From a virus: a DNA stretch of 26,338 bases. The notes under the pieces were generated by a model, which worked only from the letters and a program-made list of their open reading frames with translations, did no database searches and was not told the DNA's origin. Made by a program: the position numbers and the translations under genes. Location of the stretch: the IMG/VR virus record IMGVR_UViG_3300022072_000116, positions 1 to 26,338 of that record; one strand, 5' to 3'. Shown here in pieces: positions 8,022 through 23,850 of this stretch. The stretch's first letter is position 1. The number at the start of each line of letters is the position of its first letter.

Positions 8022-8518
8022 ATGATTACTTTTAAGCCGGGGAAGTCTTGCGACATATAGCGCTTTGCAACATTAATAAGTGCAGGGTTATCATCGCTAG
8101 CAGTTATCGCCACGCTATCACCTGATATTGTTATGTTACTAATCCATGCGCTAAATGTACTCGGTACGCCATTGATAAACTCTCTGTAAATATATTCAGT
8201 TTGCAGTGTGTTTGCAAAGTTTAGGTTATATAATTTAATATCCTTTAGCTTTGATTTAATATCAGTTCCTATGCGGCCTAGTTGAACCGTCATTGACATA
8301 ACACCGTCTTCGCTTACGTCTGGATGCTGTACCTGAAAATTGCCCGCTGTGAACGTTACGGTTTCGCCTGCATTTCTTGGTGCGCCACTTTCTAGCTTAA
8401 ACTCTTTATCATAAAATTGTTTATTGACGTATCGAATAACGCCAACCGCTGGATGATATACTTCGATAGTCTCGTATTTAGCTACACGCTCTCTTGTCTC
8501 GAAAAATGCCCTGCTCAT
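8018..8518 (-). CDS. Minor tail protein, DUF1833-like
   Basis: This is a 166-residue beta-rich protein between the tape-measure-side genes and the NlpC/P60 gene. Position, length and features (an N-terminal segment with a VYHPAVGVIRYVNKQF core, a central FTAGNFQV-type segment and a hydrophobic C-terminus) fit the DUF1833 group of phage tail proteins, which take the place of lambda minor tail proteins in many siphoviruses. The family call is from memory of the pattern, not a search. It probably forms part of the distal tail ring or baseplate hub. The start overlaps the previous stop (ATGA). Confidence 0.75.
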   Translation of the reverse strand: MSRAFFETRERVAKYETIEVYHPAVGVIRYVNKQFYDKEFKLESGAPRNAGETVTFTAGNFQVQHPDVSEDGVMSMTVQLGRIGTDIKSKLKDIKLYNLNFANTLQTEYIYREFINGVPSTFSAWISNITISGDSVAITASDDNPALINVAKRYMSQDFPGLKVII

Positions 8519-9015
8519 ACTTTAGGCCATCCCATATCAAACGCTTCACCAAAACAAGTGGCAGCCTTATCAAATGTTGATGTGCAGCTTTTATTAAGCA
8601 AGATATAAAGCGAACCTTCAGGGCAAGTTTTATCTTTGCTGATAATATCACGAGCCATTATTTTGGCTGAATAACTGAATGCGTCACCATTCTGACCAGT
8701 CGATTGCGGATATGTCAAAAATCTGACTTCCTGAGTTGTTAAACCTTCCTCAAGTTGAATCGGAAAATTAAACCAGCCAGAATTTTCACGGTAGTTATTT
8801 TGGTTAAGCCACATGATAAAAATGCGCGCATTGTCACGAGTAAATTTAAATGTGACATCCCAAAATGTAGGTAGGTCAGAGGTAAATAATTCCTGAAATG
8901 GCGGCCCACTATTTACATCGTTAAATCTAAACCCCTGCGGCTGATTGCGTGACTTGCTAGCCGTCTCGCAGCTAGGCAATATACTCGGCCAATTTTTATC
9001 TAATGAGCAAGCCAT
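8515..9015 (-). CDS. Probable minor tail (distal tail) protein
   Basis: This 166-residue protein is not assigned to a family with confidence. It lies directly after the tape measure gene, where siphoviruses encode lambda M-like or distal tail proteins that cap the tube. It is rich in aromatic residues (several Trp and Phe at 80-105) and has six Cys (positions 3, 16, 131, 144, 154 and near the C-terminal half), more than its neighbours. The start forms a TAATG overlap with the tape measure stop. A structural role in the tail tip is inferred from gene order. Confidence 0.72.
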   Translation of the reverse strand: MACSLDKNWPSILPSCETASKSRNQPQGFRFNDVNSGPPFQELFTSDLPTFWDVTFKFTRDNARIFIMWLNQNNYRENSGWFNFPIQLEEGLTTQEVRFLTYPQSTGQNGDAFSYSAKIMARDIISKDKTCPEGSLYILLNKSCTSTFDKAATCFGEAFDMGWPKV

Positions 9016-14686: not shown

Positions 14687-14695
14687 ATTATAGCA
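14687..14695 (-). promoter_or_regulatory. Extended -10 promoter for the 25-residue gene and downstream genes
   Basis: On the minus strand TGCTATAAT matches the extended -10 consensus exactly. No strong -35 is seen, which extended -10 promoters do not need. It overlaps the end of the 80-residue gene and could add transcription to the membrane, neck and tail genes. Confidence 0.6.
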
Positions 14696-14940: not shown

Positions 14941-14968
14941 TATTTAAACCTTTTATTTGTAATTGATG

Positions 14969-14997
14969 TTGACAAGATAACTAATAACTATTACATT
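14969..14997 (+). promoter_or_regulatory. Sigma-70 promoter for the plus-strand island
   Basis: TTGACA at 14969-14974 is a perfect -35. After exactly 17 bases, TACATT at 14992-14997 is a 4-of-6 match to the -10. An AAAGGAG Shine-Dalgarno at 15017-15023 and the ATG at 15031 follow. Confidence 0.75.
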
Positions 14998-15002
14998 GTC
15001 AA
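14974..15002 (-). promoter_or_regulatory. Face-to-face sigma-70 promoter for Unit B
   Basis: On the minus strand a perfect TTGACA -35 (complement of 14997-15002) is followed after exactly 17 bases by TATCTT (complement of 14974-14979). Each promoter's -10 shares its outer base with the -35 of the other, so polymerase cannot occupy both at once. The two -35 boxes form a perfect 7-base inverted repeat (TTGACAA and TTGTCAA). Confidence 0.72.
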
Positions 15003-15030
15003 TCGTCAACTAACAGAAAGGAGCAAATAA

Positions 15031-15618
15031 ATGAATATCGAACTAATGATGAAAGCGGTGAATTATTTCAACGCAGATGTTTCGAACAGCGAATATGACC
15101 ATATTTATAAGTTCGGCAGCAACTACAGTACGTTGATAGGATGCAATTACCATCAAACTGACAAAAACTACAAGCTAGTGTGCTCTGTTGCTGAATTTAA
15201 CCAGCTAGTAACCGAGCTATCAAACTGGCAGCCAACATTGCCGAAAGCTGAAACAGTTGAGTATGAGGGTAGTGTTTATGAGCTAAACTGCCTCTATGAA
15301 ACGCCTGATGGTATTAAAGTTGTGCTTGACTCTGTGACTGACCGTGTTGGTTTGAAGGTATCAAAACTAGACAATCAGGATAAATGGTGGATGGAGCAGG
15401 AACTTTTTAATACTGCTATAAAGCTAGGCACAATAACCCCTGCGCCAGTTAAGTTGGTAGATGGCGCGGCTTATATGTTCGAGATTAATAGAGATCTTTG
15501 CGCTGGATTTTATCGTGAGCGAAGAAAGTGCTTCTTTACGAAAATTAATGGCGGGAATAAGATTTGCGGATTGGCAGAGTCAAGCAAGATTACCCGCCTA
15601 GTGCCAGAGGTTAAATAA
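15031..15618 (+). CDS. Hypothetical 195-residue protein
   Basis: This protein is not recognised and has a mixed alpha/beta pattern. The two parts starting near residues 75 and 135 both read like small sheet-rich modules of the kind VEYEGSVYELNCLYETPDGIK and VKLVDGAAYMFEI, similar to short modules in phage proteins that handle nucleic acids or polymers, but no motif confirms this. The start is strong: AAAGGAG lies 7 bases ahead of the ATG, and the dedicated promoter is at 14969-14997. It is co-directional with the metallophosphoesterase gene and may be expressed with it in an early or middle phase, apart from the minus-strand structural genes. Confidence 0.75.
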   Translation: MNIELMMKAVNYFNADVSNSEYDHIYKFGSNYSTLIGCNYHQTDKNYKLVCSVAEFNQLVTELSNWQPTLPKAETVEYEGSVYELNCLYETPDGIKVVLDSVTDRVGLKVSKLDNQDKWWMEQELFNTAIKLGTITPAPVKLVDGAAYMFEINRDLCAGFYRERRKCFFTKINGGNKICGLAESSKITRLVPEVK

Positions 15619-15687
15619 ATGAAACTCAAATACCGCAACCAACAAAACACCCGTAACTGGTTTAAATTTCTCAGCATGCACAAATAA
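15619..15687 (+). CDS. Possible 22-residue basic peptide
   Basis: An ATG directly follows the TAA of the upstream gene, with GAGG 8 bases ahead. The frame encodes 22 residues rich in Lys, Arg, Asn and aromatic residues and ends 10 bases before the metallophosphoesterase gene. It could be a translated coupling peptide or a chance frame. Evidence is limited to its start signal and position. Confidence 0.4.
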   Translation: MKLKYRNQQNTRNWFKFLSMHK

Positions 15688-15697
15688 GGATATAACA

Positions 15698-17011
15698 ATG
15701 TCAGATCATTACAGCGACCTAAGACCAAGCACATCAGCATCATTTGACGCTCGCATAACTGAGCAATGCAAATCTAAGGTGTTAGATTTTAACGATGATA
15801 ATTACCTACAATTTTGCACAGAAAAACAAGAGGAAGCATTTTTAGCGTGTCGAAACAATAGCAATATGGATATTGTGGCTGGAAAACTTGGGATAACCCG
15901 CGCAGGTGTCAGAAAGCACATTGCACTAATTAAGGCCAAGGCTGTTAAACAAGGTTATAGCCCTGAACATAAGTTAGATCGAGTTGTGCCGGATACGCTT
16001 GAATTAACTGGCTTGTCCGATATGCAAGTCAATGAGCATGGGAAACCGATTTGGTATAAGTTTGGTAAGTCACAAATCCAGCAAGCCAAAGCGATAATGA
16101 TTGCAACCGATTCGTTTATGTCTGACTTGCCACGTATCGAGCCTAGTGACTATATCGGTGTAGACTATGACACTGATATCATTCCTTGGTTTAACATCGG
16201 TGACGCGCACATAGGAATGCTTGCACACGATGCAGAAGTCGGACACAACTTTGATTTAAAGATTGCTGAGCGTGAATTAACTATCGCAATGAAAATGCTT
16301 ATTGATAGCGCGCCAAATACTGAGCGCTGCGTTATTCAAGATATGGGCGACATGACGCATTACGATAACTTTATTGGTAAGACATCTAATTCTGGTCACG
16401 ACCTTGATTATGACACCCGCTTTCCAAAAATGATTGAAGTTTACACTCGTACAATGCGCCGTATTGTTGAGTTTGCATTGGCTAAGTTTAAATTTGTCGA
16501 TGTGATTATTAACCAAGGCAATCACTCGCAAATAAACGACCATTGGATGAATGTTTTACTTCGCAACGTGTACGAAAAAGAACCTCGCTTACATGTATTG
16601 CACAACGAGTCGATATTCATACCTTACCGCATGGGTAATACGTTTGTACTTTGCCACCATACTCACATGTGCAAACCAACTGCATTGGCTGGCGTGATGG
16701 CAAATGACTTTGCACAAGACTGGGGCGAAACAACTTATCATTACATTGATGGCGGTCACATTCATCACAACATGGTTACAAAGGAAGTTACAGGTGCAAA
16801 GTTTGAATCATTCAATCAGTTAGCGCCAAGTGATAAATACGCACATGATGGCGGTTGGCGTAGTAGATCACTATTAACTTGTGTGTTGCGCTCTAAAACA
16901 TATGGCGAAAAAGGACGTATTACATTGACGGCTGAAGAAGTTAAAGACCGCATATTAAAATGCAAGCCCGGTGTTTCTGCTGCTACTCGTCGAACCGTCT
17001 ACACTGTCTAA
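15698..17011 (+). CDS. Phage HTH-metallophosphoesterase protein
   Basis: This 437-residue protein has an N-terminal helix-turn-helix segment (about 53-80, VAGKLGITRAGVRKHI) and a metallophosphoesterase domain of the Mre11-like exonuclease superfamily. Metal-site motifs in order are GDAHIG at 168-173, GDMTHYD at 217-223, NQGNHSQ at 272-278, HHTH at 320-323 and GHIHH at 353-357. The family's usual GNHD/E is GNHS here, but the metal-binding Asn and His remain. Similar proteins occur near replication or recombination genes in many siphoviruses and are presumed DNA nucleases or phosphatases. AAGGA precedes the ATG, and a terminator follows the stop. A DNA-processing role is inferred from the fold. 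Confidence 0.85.
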   Translation: MSDHYSDLRPSTSASFDARITEQCKSKVLDFNDDNYLQFCTEKQEEAFLACRNNSNMDIVAGKLGITRAGVRKHIALIKAKAVKQGYSPEHKLDRVVPDTLELTGLSDMQVNEHGKPIWYKFGKSQIQQAKAIMIATDSFMSDLPRIEPSDYIGVDYDTDIIPWFNIGDAHIGMLAHDAEVGHNFDLKIAERELTIAMKMLIDSAPNTERCVIQDMGDMTHYDNFIGKTSNSGHDLDYDTRFPKMIEVYTRTMRRIVEFALAKFKFVDVIINQGNHSQINDHWMNVLLRNVYEKEPRLHVLHNESIFIPYRMGNTFVLCHHTHMCKPTALAGVMANDFAQDWGETTYHYIDGGHIHHNMVTKEVTGAKFESFNQLAPSDKYAHDGGWRSRSLLTCVLRSKTYGEKGRITLTAEEVKDRILKCKPGVSAATRRTVYTV

Positions 17012-17045
17012 CCGTTAAACTAAAACTTACACGCTATAATAAGTA

Positions 17046-17070
17046 AAGCCCCTAATTAAAGGGGCTTTTT
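17046..17070. terminator. Terminator between converging genes
   Basis: GCCCC (17048-17052) pairs with GGGGC (17061-17065) around an AT-rich loop and is followed on the plus strand by TTTTT, ending the metallophosphoesterase transcript. On the minus strand the tail is TTTACTT, so it would also stop, less efficiently, the spike-cassette transcript, whose last gene ends at 17072. Confidence 0.85.
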
Positions 17071-17071
17071 G

Positions 17072-17950
17072 TTAAACGTTAACTAGCTCATTAAATTCGC
17101 AGTGGACTATTGCACTGTTTGTATCATGCCTAAATATATCAAAGTCAAAAACCAATGGCGCAAAGTAAGTGCCACCATAAGCAGACAATATTATTCTTGC
17201 CTTTGTGTGACTAGCTCCAGTAAATAATAACGCGTCAAGACTGCCTGTGGTTGCCAATCTATCGCGCCTCATTTTAGTTGTGGCTGTGGATAGTGTTGAA
17301 TTTGATGATGTTTGATTATGCTCTGTCACGGTCATATAATAATCAACTAGCACTTGATTATTGAATACAACCTTATTACCAGACAGGTTTATCTGTATAG
17401 AGTGTATACCGCTGTTCACACTCATAAAAGACCAGTAAGGCGCGCTATTTGTAGGGTACTGCATTATCTGGACTTTCTTTGTGGAGTTTATTGATGCGGC
17501 TGACATTGTGCTGGCAGATATTTTACCTGAACCATCACTTATTAACACCTTATTTCCAGTGAGGTTGCTTGTGACAACACTAGACACTGCACCATTCATC
17601 TTGCCAAGAATCCAAGCCCATACTCTAGTGAATGATGTTTGCCTCATTGTCCCTGCATCATTGTGAGCAAACCTATCGGCATCGGCTATAGTCACTCCGC
17701 TATCAGTAGCTCCACCGTCAAGCGCGCCTAGTTCCGCGACGGTAATCGGGCTAGGCTGGATTACTCCGTTCGTGTCAGTAACTACAACCTTGCTTGCTGA
17801 TAGCTTGTTGTAAGCTACGTTGCTGCAAGCGCCAGCGTTAATTTCTGCCTTGGTCATTGCATCGTCTTTTGATATAGGGTCTATATACTCGGAAGTTCCA
17901 TCTGCTTTTCTGCTTCTGACCCCTACCATATTTGAAGTATTAAATGCCAT
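17072..17950 (-). CDS. Fibre-like structural protein with NKVLxSDxxGKI repeats
   Basis: This 292-residue protein carries two copies of a motif common in phage fibre shafts: LSASKVVVTDTNGVIQPSPIT near residue 51 and LTGNKVLISDGSGKISAS near residue 129, the first leading into ELGALDGG. The N-terminal 30 residues may be a particle-binding segment. The C-terminal half (150-292) is beta-rich and is a likely receptor- or glycan-binding domain. It ends the spike cassette that begins at 22091 and overlaps the stop of the 140-residue gene by one base. The lack of tail-fibre neighbours and closeness to capsid genes leave open whether it is a head or tail fibre. Confidence 0.7.
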   Translation of the reverse strand: MAFNTSNMVGVRSRKADGTSEYIDPISKDDAMTKAEINAGACSNVAYNKLSASKVVVTDTNGVIQPSPITVAELGALDGGATDSGVTIADADRFAHNDAGTMRQTSFTRVWAWILGKMNGAVSSVVTSNLTGNKVLISDGSGKISASTMSAASINSTKKVQIMQYPTNSAPYWSFMSVNSGIHSIQINLSGNKVVFNNQVLVDYYMTVTEHNQTSSNSTLSTATTKMRRDRLATTGSLDALLFTGASHTKARIILSAYGGTYFAPLVFDFDIFRHDTNSAIVHCEFNELVNV

Positions 17951-18372
17951 TAGTCACCTTCCCACGTATATATTTTAGTTACCAGTAAGTTTATTTGTGT
18001 AGCTGTTTTTATCATATCTATTTCAAAATATGCAGCTTTATTTGTTACGTCCTGAATACCCTCAACTTTTAATTTACACAAGGTGTTTTGCTGTGATGGT
18101 ATAGGAAGGGTATCTGTCCTTGAACCAAAACCCAAGCTGAATGTTCCAGTTGTCTTACCTACACCACCCTCAAGCATTAACCACTTACCAACAAACCTGT
18201 TTGTTGAGTAATTTCTTATTGACCCATGTATGTTTTTATACATTAGTGCTATAAAGGAGTTATCAGTATCCACATAAACAAAAGATGTCGATGATATATC
18301 AATGTCGTATGAGCTAGTTGTTACCTTTGAGTAGGATAAGGAAGGAGTTTGTGGGCTTGTTGTAAATGCCAT
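17950..18372 (-). CDS. Hypothetical beta-rich structural protein
   Basis: This 140-residue protein is of unknown family. The N-terminus has Ser/Thr-rich strands, and the middle has a GKWLMLEGGVGKTTGTFSLGFG segment. The apparent GKT pattern there is not a P-loop, since the helix and Walker B partners are absent. It overlaps both neighbours by a single base (TAATG type), so it is co-translated with the 326- and 292-residue proteins and is probably a component of the same fibre or spike. Confidence 0.68.
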   Translation of the reverse strand: MAFTTSPQTPSLSYSKVTTSSYDIDISSTSFVYVDTDNSFIALMYKNIHGSIRNYSTNRFVGKWLMLEGGVGKTTGTFSLGFGSRTDTLPIPSQQNTLCKLKVEGIQDVTNKAAYFEIDMIKTATQINLLVTKIYTWEGD

Positions 18373-19352
18373 TACACTACCCCACCACTTTTAGTATTTA
18401 AATCAAGATAACGCCAAGTATTTTCTGCCCAGTAGAATAAATATGAGTCATTCTTTGTTTGTAAAACGGCATTACCATTTGCACCACCAAATGAAACCGT
18501 GCATGGAGATGTGTTGAAATTCTGGTCAGCGTCAAACACTGTAAAAGAGTTTAACCCTGTTGACCTATCTGGCGTCAAAACAACTGCACCGGAAGATGTA
18601 TCTACAGCGTAAATCGTGCTGTATAAAACAGGTTGACTAGCTGTTATGTATTTAACCCCAGCGCTAACCTCAACGTCTTCATAACCCATCAGCGTTAACT
18701 TAAGCCAAGGCAGTGAGGTATCAAGTCCTGATTTTGTCAGGAAGTAGTCAACAGCACCGCCTTCCTCATCGATCTTAACTATTTCAACGTGAATGACATC
18801 ACCAGCCTTTGATTCTGCTGGGTGAGTGAACTCAAATAATACAGGGTCGCCAATCTGAACATCGACATCAACAAACTGATTGTATTTTACCAGTCCATTT
18901 GTTGTTTCGTTCTTTATTTGATACCTAAGCCTACCAGCGAACGCCTCGCCAGCTTTAACCTCAAGCATCACAACAGACTCATTGTTTTGCAAAGTAACAT
19001 CTAGGTCATATGGTAAGTTGTTAGCTGTTGGAGTAACGCCGTTTGTTAATAGCTCAAATGGTGCTGTATATTGTCGTGATGATGGATTGATAGTCATTGG
19101 CTGACCGTTAGCCACAAATGGTTTAACACCCTGCCATACAGGAAACCAATTAATTAATGATATGTTGTTTTGGTCGAATACGTTTTCACCGCCGCTGTGA
19201 GTAGTGTGCATATCGCCAAGCTTAAATGAGTTAAGACCAGACTGAACGCTGTACGATGTAGCTATTACATTGCTTTGAGCGTCAACAGTCCAAAGGTCTA
19301 GTTTATCCTGATCTGACTCACTTAACCCGCCGCCCGTTTGTGGATATGACAT
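18372..19352 (-). CDS. Fibre/spike component with a terminal beta-sandwich-like domain
   Basis: This 326-residue protein has a short N-terminal Gly-rich region and a central beta-rich region with GRLRYQIKNETTNGLVKYNQF. The C-terminal domain (about 240-320) has the pattern YAVDTSSGAVVLTP, FTVFDADQN, TVSFGG, then NTWRYLDL, which occurs in the end domains of many phage fibres and decoration proteins. The 126-residue protein at 1276-1656 shows a related layout (TLPLA to NWRFL). A GAGG site lies ahead of the ATG, and a 6-bp hairpin precedes it. A role in a glycan-contacting appendage is inferred. Confidence 0.7.
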   Translation of the reverse strand: MSYPQTGGGLSESDQDKLDLWTVDAQSNVIATSYSVQSGLNSFKLGDMHTTHSGGENVFDQNNISLINWFPVWQGVKPFVANGQPMTINPSSRQYTAPFELLTNGVTPTANNLPYDLDVTLQNNESVVMLEVKAGEAFAGRLRYQIKNETTNGLVKYNQFVDVDVQIGDPVLFEFTHPAESKAGDVIHVEIVKIDEEGGAVDYFLTKSGLDTSLPWLKLTLMGYEDVEVSAGVKYITASQPVLYSTIYAVDTSSGAVVLTPDRSTGLNSFTVFDADQNFNTSPCTVSFGGANGNAVLQTKNDSYLFYWAENTWRYLDLNTKSGGVV

Positions 19353-19370
19353 TTTAATTCCTCTTAGTTT

Positions 19371-19389
19371 AGCCGCTGGTTAGGCGGCT
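19371..19389. promoter_or_regulatory. Intercistronic hairpin in the spike cassette
   Basis: AGCCGC (19371-19376) pairs with GCGGCT (19384-19389) over a 7-base loop, between the 731- and 326-residue genes. Neither side has a T run, so it is more likely an mRNA-stability or processing element than a terminator. Confidence 0.5.
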
Positions 19390-19396
19390 TATTTGG

Positions 19397-21592
19397 TTAA
19401 TATACATAATCAGAGTAATTAACTAGAGGTATTACCCCTTGGTTTAATATGCTGTAGCCATCGAACGCCGCGCTTACGCCTCTAGGCTGGTTGCCGTTGC
19501 TCATTTTCAACTCTCCACTCCAAGTCAGAGAAGCTAAATCCTTAACTGCAACAGAAGTTTTTACGCCAGCAGTCCACCATCCGCATTTAAGGAATGATCT
19601 TGAGTTGAATGATGCGCCTGTTGCAACATTTAATGATGAATCCACTGCTCCTATAAACGTACATTTGTACGCTTTTAATACATTACTCCCACCAACGATT
19701 GTAATGTGGGAGTTACCCATTAGAAACAATGAATCCTCCACATAATAGTCTGACTCACCAGTGGCTTTACTGTCAAAAGCGCCCTTAACTATGGACGGGT
19801 GAAGCTCCATTACGCAACTATATACATAGGTTTTGCATCGGTAGCTTCTTAGTAATCTACTGAATTTTGTAGCCTTGTCCTTGTATTCACCCCATATGCA
19901 CCGCACGGTTCTGAACTCATGCGTCCCTGTAAGTGGAGCATCGAACGTTTCAACTCCATTGACAGTGCTTTTTTCCGTCTTAACCCACAGGTCTCTAAAC
20001 TCTAACTTTTGAGGCGTGTTGTTGGCGAAGTTGACAAAAGTAGTGCTTGATGCATCTGCGGTATACACGGCATCTGTCTTTGTTGCTCCGTCACCCTGTA
20101 GTGTTGCAAATTCCGCAGGATCTCCACCTTTAGCGTTACCAGATAGTGACGGCTGGATGGCGTTTTTAACATCAAGTCTATCACCAACTATTTGAAGTCT
20201 GCCGCCATAAGTTACACGACCACCAGTAAGCGCGTATTCTGCATTCTTGAATGGTACTCTTGGGTTCCAGCCTGTGTTAGCATCTGAGCCGTTAATGCTA
20301 TCTATCCAGTACACGGGGTGAATTGTATCAGGGGTGTAAAGAGTTTCATAATCACCTTTAAAATCGTTTTCAGTAGTAACGAACGAAACTGTTGTGCCGT
20401 CGCTTTTCCCGCTACCAGTAGAGCAGGACGCAAAAACCTCACTACCGTTTACGAATAAGTCTAGTGGCACTATAAATGTGCTTGCGTCAGTACCCCTATA
20501 TGCTCCAACAGTTTTCCACTCTGTTAAGTCGTGATTAGATAGTATTATGCAGTTGTATTTCTCGCCAGTCTGGATTATCTCATTGCCAGCCAACCAAACC
20601 TGCCGACCATCTGGCAGCCAAACTGCGAGCCATCCAGCTATGCCAGTCATGTGTGTGGAAACTGTTGAAATTCGCTTTAGCGTTGATATATTTAAATCTG
20701 ACGATATAGTCCATATCCCGCACTCAGTATCATTTCCGAACGCCCCAGTTGGTGCATCTGGCATCATGTATATGGTTGAGTCTTTAAATAATAGATCTAC
20801 CGTTCTGAACGCCTGCCTTCCTGATACGTTGATAAGCCCAGACGTTTGGATTACGTTAGCAGGATTTACATTAGCTGGCCATGCTGACAGTCCGTCCCAA
20901 CTATAAACAGACGACTGCGCATTACTATCACCAGTAATAACGTAAATCCTCCCATTGTTTGGGTTTTGCTTTACGGCGTGGATATGCCTAACGTTATTAT
21001 TTGAGCCATCAGTATTCCACTCGGTTACGGCGATCCATGTATCCCCCATATCGTCTGAGCGCAATAATCTTATTCTATCGTTGGTGCTACCGTTAACCCT
21101 TGATGAGTTTATATTGTACTCACCCATGAGCAACACCGTAGACCCAGATATATTTGCAATGCAAATGCTTCTGTTTGTCAGCGTTCTTACATTTGATATG
21201 TCTTGAGTCAATACTAATGACCAAGTGGCGCCGCTGTTGATTGTTTTGTAGTATCTATAAAAATTTGTTCCAGCACTAACTTCAACAATCATAGATGTAG
21301 GGCTTAGAGCTTTTATATTCCTAATTCCAGCTACAGGAAGGGCGACACCGTAGTTAATTTGCTCCTTAGTTTTAACATTTACCCTAACAACCTGATTATC
21401 ACCAGTAGTTGATTGGCCATACATAAAATCACCAAGACTGTCATAACAGTTTATTGGAAAAAAATCTGTAGGAGTGACGGATTTTACTTTTTCACTTGAC
21501 CCTGTTGCGTCAATCAACCCATTAACATTGCTAATCAATAAATCAGTTTTACCAAGCGTAGCGTCACCGCATATCATTTTAGTTAAAGACAT
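19397..21592 (-). CDS. Beta-propeller plus beta-helix spike protein
   Basis: This 731-residue protein appears to have two parts. Residues about 40-410 look like a sialidase-type beta-propeller, with two Asp-box motifs of the S/T-x-D/N-x-G-x-T-W type at 117-124 (TINSGATW) and 179-186 (SDDMGDTW) and propeller-like strands between. From 427, YWIDSINGSDANTGWNPRVPFKNAEYAL is the typical entry of right-handed beta-helix surface proteins, and strand-turn repeats continue to near the C-terminus. Asp boxes mark the fold and are not catalytic, so glycosidase activity is unproven. GAGGTGAT precedes the ATG, inside the 51-residue gene. It may degrade or bind host polysaccharide. Confidence 0.75.
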   Translation of the reverse strand: MSLTKMICGDATLGKTDLLISNVNGLIDATGSSEKVKSVTPTDFFPINCYDSLGDFMYGQSTTGDNQVVRVNVKTKEQINYGVALPVAGIRNIKALSPTSMIVEVSAGTNFYRYYKTINSGATWSLVLTQDISNVRTLTNRSICIANISGSTVLLMGEYNINSSRVNGSTNDRIRLLRSDDMGDTWIAVTEWNTDGSNNNVRHIHAVKQNPNNGRIYVITGDSNAQSSVYSWDGLSAWPANVNPANVIQTSGLINVSGRQAFRTVDLLFKDSTIYMMPDAPTGAFGNDTECGIWTISSDLNISTLKRISTVSTHMTGIAGWLAVWLPDGRQVWLAGNEIIQTGEKYNCIILSNHDLTEWKTVGAYRGTDASTFIVPLDLFVNGSEVFASCSTGSGKSDGTTVSFVTTENDFKGDYETLYTPDTIHPVYWIDSINGSDANTGWNPRVPFKNAEYALTGGRVTYGGRLQIVGDRLDVKNAIQPSLSGNAKGGDPAEFATLQGDGATKTDAVYTADASSTTFVNFANNTPQKLEFRDLWVKTEKSTVNGVETFDAPLTGTHEFRTVRCIWGEYKDKATKFSRLLRSYRCKTYVYSCVMELHPSIVKGAFDSKATGESDYYVEDSLFLMGNSHITIVGGSNVLKAYKCTFIGAVDSSLNVATGASFNSRSFLKCGWWTAGVKTSVAVKDLASLTWSGELKMSNGNQPRGVSAAFDGYSILNQGVIPLVNYSDYVY

Positions 21593-21738
21593 TCTATCAC
21601 CTCATTACACGGAATTATTGCTCCACATACTATAACGCCAGTTATTTTACTATACCAACCAATAGCGCCGCCAGCATTAGGCCACCCATTAGCTAAGCCC
21701 AGCCCCAACCCAATAAACAATCTGCTAGGATATGCCAT
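21583..21738 (-). CDS. Small 51-residue Gly-rich hydrophobic protein
   Basis: The frame starts at an ATG overlapping the stop of the 117-residue gene (TAATG) and ends inside the start of the 731-residue gene, overlapping by 10 bases. The peptide begins MAYPSRLFIGLGLGLANGWPN and continues with a hydrophobic C-terminal half containing three Cys. The coupled start and tight overlap on both sides support real translation, which would carry ribosomes to the spike start. It may be a small membrane or particle-associated protein. No family is recognised. Confidence 0.65.
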   Translation of the reverse strand: MAYPSRLFIGLGLGLANGWPNAGGAIGWYSKITGVIVCGAIIPCNEVIECL

Positions 21739-22091
21739 TAACTAACTCTCCAGAAATGCGCCTCAAATGTTGTTGCTGTACCAGTTATTCCAGCCAAAGT
21801 TAAACGCCCACTAACAGCAGCGCCTACGAATACAGGCATAACATAAGTTGCAACGCCAGCAATAACTTTGGTTGCGTCAATAGTGATGTCGCCGCTAGAT
21901 GGTTCGTGCCATTGACCTGCAATTGGTGACATTTCAGGTTTAATTGTGCCGCCTGTAGGAGTTACCGGATTGCCGCCTGCATCATAGAACGCAATAACGA
22001 ATGTGCCTGATTGATAATCAGCGCTCATAACTTCATCTGTAACATATGTTCCGTTAGCGACTGAGCCGACTATTTTATAACGTTGTGCCAT
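21738..22091 (-). CDS. Hypothetical 117-residue structural protein, first gene of the spike cassette
   Basis: This beta-rich protein (GTFVIAFYDAGGNPVTPTGGTI, then ATYVMPVFVGAAVSGRLTLAGI) ends in an aromatic FWRVS. Proteins of this kind and size after the capsid gene are often minor decoration or fibre-base proteins, but no family is certain. An AAGGA Shine-Dalgarno precedes the ATG, and an extended -10 promoter at 22122-22130 sits about 30 bases upstream, so it is the first gene of its transcript. Confidence 0.72.
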   Translation of the reverse strand: MAQRYKIVGSVANGTYVTDEVMSADYQSGTFVIAFYDAGGNPVTPTGGTIKPEMSPIAGQWHEPSSGDITIDATKVIAGVATYVMPVFVGAAVSGRLTLAGITGTATTFEAHFWRVS

Positions 22092-22121
22092 TTTGAGTAA
22101 TCCTTGTTTGTTGTTTAGACA

Positions 22122-22130
22122 ATTATACCA
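22122..22130 (-). promoter_or_regulatory. Extended -10 promoter of the spike cassette
   Basis: On the minus strand TGGTATAAT is an exact extended -10 match, with no clear -35. It lies between the capsid-side terminator at 22155-22178 and the 117-residue gene, so it would drive the six spike-cassette genes independently of the capsid genes. Confidence 0.65.
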
Positions 22131-22154
22131 TTAACACAATAAATTGCAGGCAAT

Positions 22155-22178
22155 AAAAAGCCCCGCATGTGCAGGGCT
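22155..22178 (-). terminator. Terminator at the end of the capsid genes
   Basis: An 8-bp stem with a 4-base loop (hairpin 22159-22178, one G-T pair) is followed on the minus strand by TTTTTATTG. It sits 6 bases past the stop of the 54-residue gene and would end the capsid transcript. Confidence 0.88.
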
Positions 22179-22183
22179 ATTAT

Positions 22184-22348
22184 TTACTTAGACTTCTTTG
22201 GCTTTTCTTCTGCCACTTCGGCCTGTTTAGGTTCTGCCCATTCAGCATCAAATAACAATGCTGTAGGTAATTTACCTTGTTCGTGCCTTAGCTCATCACC
22301 AACACTCAACTCAAGCGATGGAACTGCTCGCGTGATAATGTAAGGCAT
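22184..22348 (-). CDS. Small 54-residue protein after the capsid gene
   Basis: The ATG overlaps the capsid gene stop (TAATG), and the frame gives 54 residues: an N-terminal part with VGDELRHEQGKLPTALLFDAEW and a charged Glu/Lys-rich tail ending KPKKSK. Small proteins translationally coupled to the capsid gene are common in phages, where they may be decoration proteins, head-tail factors or assembly aids. This one is unassigned. It is followed immediately by a strong terminator. Confidence 0.7.
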   Translation of the reverse strand: MPYIITRAVPSLELSVGDELRHEQGKLPTALLFDAEWAEPKQAEVAEEKPKKSK

Positions 22349-23430
22349 TAGGTAATGTTGCTCGCATAGAACACGCCATACTTGTCATTCATCGTTTTCT
22401 TAATCTCAATACCTTGAGCAGTAACGATGCGAGTTGCATAGCCTTCAACTGGTGTTTGGCGAGGCATCAAGAATGAACCTGTAGCCATTGCAACGATTGG
22501 ACGGATGATGCTTGAGTCTTTGCGGTATGCATAAAACTCGTTACCAACCAAAGCAAAGTCTTTTAAGAAGTTGCGAACGTTAGACACGCGCTTAATGTAA
22601 TCCATCAACGGCTCACCCTCAACACCACCTTTAAATTCGGTAGTCTTAGAAATTGGAGCCATTAAGCGGCGGTATACTGTTGGAGACAAGCCCATAGTGT
22701 CAACGAAACCTAATGACTGATCGTCCAATTCTTTAGCAAAACCTTGGTTGAAGAATGCAACCAATTCATCATTCGTAGCAGTTGCTAAGTTGATGTTATA
22801 GCCGCTTGCGCCCAAGTCGATTTTCTTAGTGTTGCGATGATTCTTGATGCCTTCACCAGCCTGACCATCAGCTTTAATAGTGATATCACCATTAAGCATG
22901 TATGAGCCAACTTTTTCAGTCAACTTGCGAGTTTTAAGCGTAACTGAATCACCGTATAGATCAATGCTTTCAGAGTCTAAACCAGCGCGGTGACGATAGC
23001 CCATAGTAACGCCAGCCATAAACGCTGGAATTGGGTTACGGTCAGAATCGGCACTGATATGATCGTGCTTGATTTGCGCGTTGAAATCCATAGACACAGA
23101 TACATCATCGCTAATGTCGCTAGACTTTAACGAAACAGCAGACAGCTTGCCAACGCTAACAGTTTTAGCTAAACCTGATAGGTCGTCCATGAATAAGAAT
23201 TTTTCATCTAAACGAACACCTTCAACAGCGCGGTCAGTTTCACGGAAGAAATCAAGGATTGGGATACCAGCGTTAACATGCACTGCTGCATCGCGAGGCA
23301 AGTCTAATAAATGACGTTCGTGGCGAGCAGCATAACGGCGAGCGTTACCGATAAATTCGATATGAGATTGTTTACGCGCATCAGTTTTGGCTAGTTCGCG
23401 GAACTCATTGTTAATTACAATAGTCTTCAT
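22348..23430 (-). CDS. Major capsid protein
   Basis: This 360-residue protein is in the capsid position: after protease/scaffold and a small decoration-type protein. The sequence resembles major capsid proteins of the DUF6260 kind (HK97-like fold), with an N-terminal helical arm (1-40), a central region containing repeated acidic Asp/Ser stretches, a GYRHRAGLDSE segment, and a C-terminal part ending in the beta-hairpin IEIKKTMNDKYGVFYASNIT. The family name is from memory. No sign of a cleavable scaffold is fused to it, which agrees with the separate scaffold next door. A weak GGAG-type site precedes the ATG. Confidence 0.85.
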   Translation of the reverse strand: MKTIVINNEFRELAKTDARKQSHIEFIGNARRYAARHERHLLDLPRDAAVHVNAGIPILDFFRETDRAVEGVRLDEKFLFMDDLSGLAKTVSVGKLSAVSLKSSDISDDVSVSMDFNAQIKHDHISADSDRNPIPAFMAGVTMGYRHRAGLDSESIDLYGDSVTLKTRKLTEKVGSYMLNGDITIKADGQAGEGIKNHRNTKKIDLGASGYNINLATATNDELVAFFNQGFAKELDDQSLGFVDTMGLSPTVYRRLMAPISKTTEFKGGVEGEPLMDYIKRVSNVRNFLKDFALVGNEFYAYRKDSSIIRPIVAMATGSFLMPRQTPVEGYATRIVTAQGIEIKKTMNDKYGVFYASNIT

Positions 23431-23442
23431 TTTCTATAGCTC

Positions 23443-23850
23443 CTAAGCCATTGTTACAGCGATTTGAGCAGTAACGCCCGCGCCAGTTGTTACGTTTTCA
23501 GATGCATAACCAACCAAACCACCAGTTACTGTTTTAGTTACTTGACCAAGTGCGCCAATGTAAAGCTTGTCATTTTTTAGCACTGTTTGTGATGCAGCAA
23601 GAATTAACGTACGTAAATCGCCATCGTTAATCTGATAAGCGTTACCACCAGCAGAGGCAGCAACTAATTCGCAACCATTCGTTGAGTATTGATTATCGCC
23701 AAATACGAACAAGCGAAGTGTGCTATCGGCTGCGGCAGCGAATGCGCCAGCGGCAGTAACGTTACCTAAAGTGCCCGGTGTAACTGCTGCGGCATTGGTC
23801 ACAACTTGAGATACTGCGTGGCCATCTAATAAAACGGTTTTATAAGCCAT
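23443..23850 (-). CDS. Probable capsid decoration protein
   Basis: This 135-residue Ala/Val/Thr/Gly-rich beta protein lies between the protease/scaffold and the major capsid genes, exactly where siphoviruses encode head-stabilising decoration proteins (lambda D or DUF2190-like). Short strands alternate with AAGA and TTG turns. No motif gives a firm family. It starts two bases past the protease start region, with a good ATG (23850) and tight spacing to both neighbours, so it belongs to the same capsid transcript. Confidence 0.75.
   Translation of the reverse strand: MAYKTVLLDGHAVSQVVTNAAAVTPGTLGNVTAAGAFAAAADSTLRLFVFGDNQYSTNGCELVAASAGGNAYQINDGDLRTLILAASQTVLKNDKLYIGALGQVTKTVTGGLVGYASENVTTGAGVTAQIAVTMA

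Follow-up and report, generated by a model that had tools for sequence, protein, structure and literature searches.

A promoter-led block of exchanged genes beside the capsid genes of a marine tailed phage, a possible platform for host-attachment proteins

In siphoviruses, the capsid genes normally lead straight to the genes of the connector proteins, and genes that carry their own promoter and terminator are known as morons. Host range is usually read from the tail fibres, among which exchange is commonplace. What, then, are six minus-strand genes encoding proteins of 117, 51, 731, 326, 140 and 292 amino acids (aa) doing between the capsid and neck genes of IMG/VR record IMGVR_UViG_3300022072_000116? 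This record is a 26,338-bp fragment of a tailed phage, a marine virus of bacteria, and was analysed as a whole (the window). A first interpretation, made from the letters of the DNA (the sequence-only reading), had taken the six genes as a self-contained and acquired spike/fibre unit; as a whole, that interpretation was partly supported by the comparisons described below.

Four near relatives were picked via a match to the major capsid protein (MCP), and five sequences including the window were compared. The MCP gene (22348..23430, minus strand; phrog_771, DUF6260) forms a conserved flank of the block, its product being 99, 95, 77 and 77% identical to those of the relatives. The identity of the decoration protein, encoded in the usual position beside the MCP gene (23443-23850, phrog_766), was 96, 89, 87 and 87%, that of the 54-aa gene next to the block was 82-91%, and that of the 117-aa protein encoded by the first gene of the block (21738..22091, minus strand), hereafter the anchor, was 74-77% in all four. 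On the downstream side, an 80-aa gene was 85-86% identical in the three relative records that extend that far. In contrast to these flanks, the genes behind the anchor, hereafter the payload, are replaced. The 326-, 140- and 292-aa genes (18372..19352, 17950..18372 and 17072..17950, all minus strand) had no match in any of the four relatives, and the 731-aa protein (19397..21592, minus strand) was matched over its first 43 aa only (65% identity; G003 and G004). The 51-aa gene (21583..21738, minus strand), whose product begins with MAYPxRLFxGLG..ANGWPN, was 67% identical over 51 aa in two relatives and, in a fused form, 75% identical over 24 aa in L003. G001 and G002, whose MCPs are 99 and 95% identical to that of the window, run through to the neck genes and at this site have a payload unlike that of the window. 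The comparison of gene order that the sequence-only reading had proposed as a check had the following outcome: the flanks, the promoter and the anchor are conserved and the payload is replaced, short N-termini are shared by proteins with different remainders, and the same enzyme domain stands behind different N-termini. The idea of an inserted module is supported in so far as the payload is present or absent between conserved flanks and the block is wholly absent from the more distant Vibrio phage Seahorse, in which the MCP gene (product 36% identical) is followed by one 108-aa gene and then by a homologue of the 132-aa neck gene of the window, and in which no anchor match was found. It fails as a single recent insertion, since the promoter and first gene were present in all four near relatives.

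The payloads of the relatives indicate how such replacements may have occurred. In L002, the order is a 116-aa gene, a 119-aa anchor, a 472-aa GDSL/SGNH protein (E 1.8e-11) and a 285-aa protein whose N-domain is anchor-like. Over 393 aa (residues 79-471), the SGNH protein shares 81% identity with that of Shewanella phage 1/44, which has a different N-terminus and is likewise encoded behind an anchor-family gene. In L003, the anchor is followed by a 526-aa protein that starts with the sequence of the 51-aa gene of the window and by a 285-aa protein; searches of phage collections with this N-terminal segment and with the 526-aa protein gave no match. In L004, the anchor is followed by a homologue of the 51-aa gene and by a 416-aa protein, which starts like the 731-aa protein of the window (65% over the first 43 aa) and continues as an FGE/C-lectin-type protein (phrog_2889). 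The latter showed tail-family matches and 54% identity with VHML ORF35, the gene of which is flanked by a tail-fibre gene and a reverse transcriptase gene among P2-like tail genes, and the relatives of which in Pseudoalteromonas phages are annotated as antireceptors. The relatives, whose 34- and 39-kb records are possibly incomplete, showed neither a reverse transcriptase nor another copy of the variable region. The swaps described here are exchanges within genes in which the N-terminal segment is retained.

Besides, the 285-aa proteins (L002 13641-14498, L003 13398-14255) consist of an anchor-like domain (DUF7265) fused to a second domain; in Vibrio phages P23 and phiHSIC, the latter has a gene of its own immediately behind the capsid gene. 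On its far side, the block is bordered by the exonuclease-type gene (15698..17011, plus strand; phrog_704, E 1.2e-88), which retains its first 85-114 aa in the relatives (50-71% identity) and has its remainder replaced; the opposite-strand exonuclease-type gene of L004 (13274-14047, minus strand) appears shortened, encoding 257 aa.

Consensus matches support the view that the block is a separate transcription unit. The minus-strand run of structural genes, comprising the protease, decoration protein, MCP and 54-aa genes, ends at an intrinsic terminator (22159..22178, minus strand) with an 8-bp stem and TTTTT, and is followed by an exact extended -10 motif, TGGTATAAT, at 22122..22130 on the same strand. 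Both elements had been pointed out in the sequence-only reading, and both were kept in all four near relatives, the -10 motif being invariant in the five aligned sequences. Since the sequence around them has diverged among the four relatives, the pair is considered to be more than a chance match; the bare 9-mer alone would not exceed chance, TGNTATAAT being found three times in the window. Behind this promoter, the six genes lie at the coordinates originally given, with spacing near zero except for a 44-bp gap at 19353-19396. The terminator that had been assigned to the far end of the block (17046-17070) is a real hairpin (17045..17068, both strands). It stands between convergent genes, about 35-60 bp from the end of the plus-strand exonuclease-type gene, and has its better T-run on the plus strand, and it is therefore a two-way terminator shared with that gene and not the property of the block. 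With this qualification, consensus matches provide the block with the promoter and terminator expected of a moron. The claim of a self-contained unit between capsid and neck genes had, however, omitted two plus-strand genes (15031-17011), namely the exonuclease-type gene and a 195-aa gene (15031-15618) between it and the neck operon, as well as the second extended -10 motif (TGCTATAAT; 14687..14695, minus strand) that heads the neck/tail operon and recurs at the same place in the three relative records covering that stretch (G001-G003). As two plus-strand genes separate the block from the neck operon, read-through from capsid to neck is not expected in this lineage. The divergent intergenic region between the 80-aa gene and the plus-strand genes (14941-15030) contains a TTGACA...TGTCAA inverted repeat, possibly an operator. 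Recent foreign acquisition, as judged by base composition, was rejected because the guanine-plus-cytosine content of the block (0.42-0.45) is like that of the rest of the window and is lower only in the 140-aa gene (0.35).

To what does the conserved anchor belong? It was assigned to phrog_25621 (E 1.2e-29), with a DUF7265-like match below the cut-off, and tblastn located it in 48 phage records, all with less than 60% identity and nearly all annotated as hypothetical. The family spans siphoviruses, myoviruses and podoviruses, and most of its contexts are among head genes, from terminase to neck. The anchor gene lies after the MCP gene and before an SGNH hydrolase gene in Vibrio phage 1.076.O, between the MCP and neck genes in Jedunavirus KpV79, Yokohamavirus PEi21 and Vibrio phage 1.122.A, between the terminase and portal genes in 1.046.O, and right after a gp4-type adaptor gene in podovirus 340E47.2 and contigs L024 and L025. 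In L021, it follows head-completion-type genes, and the anchor is still 77% identical although the capsid gene set looks different. No tail-tip or tail-fibre neighbourhood was seen among the direct anchor contexts that were read. Two scans of bacterial genomes, one with an anchor alignment and one with a capsid alignment, yielded no prophage relatives; the broad alignment of the anchor family was too diverse to serve as a scan profile.

An AlphaFold2 (AF2) model of the anchor based on a 10-row alignment showed a beta sandwich, with a predicted local distance difference test score (pLDDT) of 85 and a predicted template modelling score of 0.79. The top two Foldseek matches in the PDB were the trimeric cement protein of KHP40 and a capsid chain of Vibrio cholerae phage VP1, and capsid chains of Pam1 and BPP-1 were also among the matches. 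With a second aligner, VIA, VP1 chain c ranked first (Z 10.8; 104 residues, 2.5 Å), followed by KHP40 (8.3) and BPP-1 (6.5); against the background Z of 7-8 quoted for the tool, VP1 stands clear and the other two do not. Identity in these structural alignments was 14% or less. The anchor is thus predicted to be a jelly-roll similar to phage capsid cement proteins, a cement-type beta fold being in itself no proof of function. No publication that deals with DUF7265 or describes the capsid of VP1 (PDB 9in6) was found. Because the module is common to three tail types and occurs mostly among head genes, a head or neck position fits better than one on the tail, and this gene context and the cement-like fold place the anchor, probably, on the head or neck.

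Among the payload proteins of the window, the 731-aa protein contains two sialidase-type Asp boxes (pattern S/T-x-D/N-x-G-x-T-W), TINSGATW at aa 117 and SDDMGDTW at aa 179, which are 62 aa apart; two such boxes occurred in none of 20,000 shuffles. A beta-helix-like G-S-D-x-N-x-G motif, GSDANTG, is found at aa 435. A propeller/beta-helix architecture is therefore plausible from its motifs; Pfam BNR matched weakly (E 0.24), and a search of 50,697 phage records revealed no homologue. For the 326-aa protein, relatives were found in Vibrio phages, with 51% identity for ORF39 of podovirus KZY1 and 31% for a portion of the 340E47.2 protein that follows the anchor; hence the link between the anchor and a 326-type domain recurs in an unrelated podovirus. 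Residues 50-144 of the 292-aa protein, which has shaft-type sequence, showed 39% identity with a protein of Vibrio phage VPALA that is annotated as a structural component of the virion, and the 292-aa protein is a probable fibre protein with a presumed shaft role. The 140-aa protein had no relatives in PHROGs, Pfam or the four near relatives, and none of the 731-, 140- and 292-aa proteins had a usable match in Pfam, NCBIfam or PHROGs.

Based on these results, it was hypothesised, with a slight lean in its favour, that the block is a hot spot of exchangeable host-attachment modules on a jelly-roll anchor, which is expressed from its own conserved promoter and binds the virion, most likely at the capsid or neck. 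Late in infection, the block would be transcribed from this promoter; the anchor would trimerise, as do cement proteins, and bind the virion, and the payload proteins (fibres or spikes) would dock via their short N-terminal segments. They would then bind or modify glycans of the bacterial surface and raise adsorption to particular hosts. We infer that the products are incorporated into the virion at a head or neck site and that the 731-aa protein binds glycans. Payloads would be swapped through recombination that has the promoter, anchor and N-termini at one end and the opposite-strand genes at the other. Sometimes the exchange would fall within a gene, so that the N-terminal docking segment is kept while the part with the receptor-binding or enzymatic function is new. 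The MCP of the window is related to Sf11 gp39 (PDB 9ocb), and Sf11 carries a lambda-D-like decoration protein on its three-fold sites (PMC12724387). Since the window has a decoration protein gene in the usual position, the additional anchor would be expected elsewhere than on the three-fold sites, for example at the vertices, where the knobbed capsid fibres of Seahorse were seen by cryo-electron tomography (PMC7012835), although this is an analogy only. More tentatively, the block may represent a mobile, promoter-led and head-mounted receptor-binding platform common to sipho-, myo- and podoviruses, in which tail-type domains are exchanged behind a jelly-roll capsid anchor (phrog_25621), giving phages, besides the tail, a second determinant of host range that is borne by the capsid and evolves on its own. 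It is just as tentative that a DGR-type (diversity-generating retroelement) lectin, an SGNH esterase and a propeller/beta-helix spike are the tail-type domains plugged into such a platform.

Several observations weigh against a head-mounted attachment module. The single-sequence AF2 model of the 731-aa protein reached a pLDDT of only 32, and the beta-propeller/beta-helix spike proposed at the outset would fit the Asp boxes and GSDANTG. Jelly-roll folds are common, and sequence searches of the PDB with the anchor gave no meaningful match. Seahorse, which has a related MCP and capsid fibres, lacks the anchor. The anchor lies away from capsid genes in pYD6-A, Shewanella 1/44, Aeromonas 4_L372X and L023, exceptions that led us to reject the generalisation that every anchor context is capsid-adjacent. 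KZY1 ORF39 sits between tail tubular genes A and B, and an anchor-like domain adjoins tail-fibre genes in Vibrio phage P2. These last two facts also favour the strongest alternative, namely that the block supplements the host-range module downstream of J with a second one carried on the tail, as side fibres or neck-to-tail appendages, the anchor being a tail or adaptor docking protein whose gene position does not reflect its place in the virion. The position of the podovirus anchor directly behind a gp4-type adaptor gene and the tail-protein relatives of the payloads, such as VHML ORF35 and the tail families matched in L004, point the same way. However, the occurrence of the anchor in phages of three tail types, mostly among head genes, and the capsid cement proteins among its best fold matches speak for the head, and we regard a tail location as unlikely, although it deserves serious consideration.

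Two further alternatives are improbable to a similar degree. The 117-aa protein might be a purely stabilising cement protein behind whose convenient promoter unrelated cargo has recombined, as its fold and the retention of the first gene while others vary would allow, but the usual decoration protein gene is already present and the payloads repeatedly carry surface-binding or glycan-modifying domains, behind the anchor in unrelated phages. The products might instead be made in the infected cell and released in the manner of morons, for instance to modify polysaccharides as free enzymes or to block superinfection, in keeping with the separate promoter and terminator and the occasional placement among non-structural genes in other phages, but the block lies within the late structural region, and the protein to which the 292-aa protein matches is annotated as part of the virion structure.

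Elsewhere in the window, a minus-strand gene at 1656-2357 behind a 916-aa spike candidate encodes a protein of 233 aa, which begins with a signal-peptide-like segment, contains a polysaccharide deacetylase domain (PF01522, E 3.3e-12) and had no match in the 50,697 phage records. The gene of a 166-aa tail protein (8515-9015) is present in one copy in the window and in two adjacent copies in G001 and G002.

If the capsid-side block does encode exchangeable proteins that bind or modify glycans, a second host-range locus is being missed in many marine and enteric phages, the anchor family alone marking 48 phage records. Such modules could be sought simply by their conserved anchor, and host ranges could be compared directly between phages that have near-identical capsids and differ naturally in payload.

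Head fibres and capsid adhesins are already known from phi29 (gp8.5), Agrobacterium phage 7-7-1, Seahorse, T4 (Hoc) and T5 (pb10) (PMC7602432, PMC12796354, PMC7012835). Like the products proposed for the block, they are optional, capsid-borne proteins thought to aid binding to the host surface. The block, with its putative head- or neck-borne products, differs as a promoter-led multi-gene unit with exchangeable enzymatic or lectin-type ends, and no sequence relation to them was shown. The cement proteins of KHP40, BPP-1, Pam1 and VP1 (capsid chain c) have a jelly-roll fold that resembles the one predicted for the anchor, but they share little sequence with it, and the window already encodes a decoration protein of the standard kind. 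Only the L004 payload resembles the DGR-diversified tail lectins of the VHML/BPP-1 type; it differs in its N-terminus, in its placement after the capsid gene and in that no reverse transcriptase or template repeat was found in the records of L004 or the other relatives. The window itself lacks the domain. Similarly, SGNH-esterase receptor-binding proteins (G7C type, Klebsiella prophage fibres), for which SGNH-bearing phage fibres were shown to be active esterases (PMC13123978), are resembled only by L002, which has a GDSL/SGNH domain in a protein of the structural region. That protein, a predicted esterase, is encoded behind the capsid gene and a cement-like anchor, unlike those of the tail-fibre locus. 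Set beside these systems, a block at the capsid/neck boundary in which an anchor is combined with exchangeable payloads and appears to recruit tail-type receptor-binding domains looks new.

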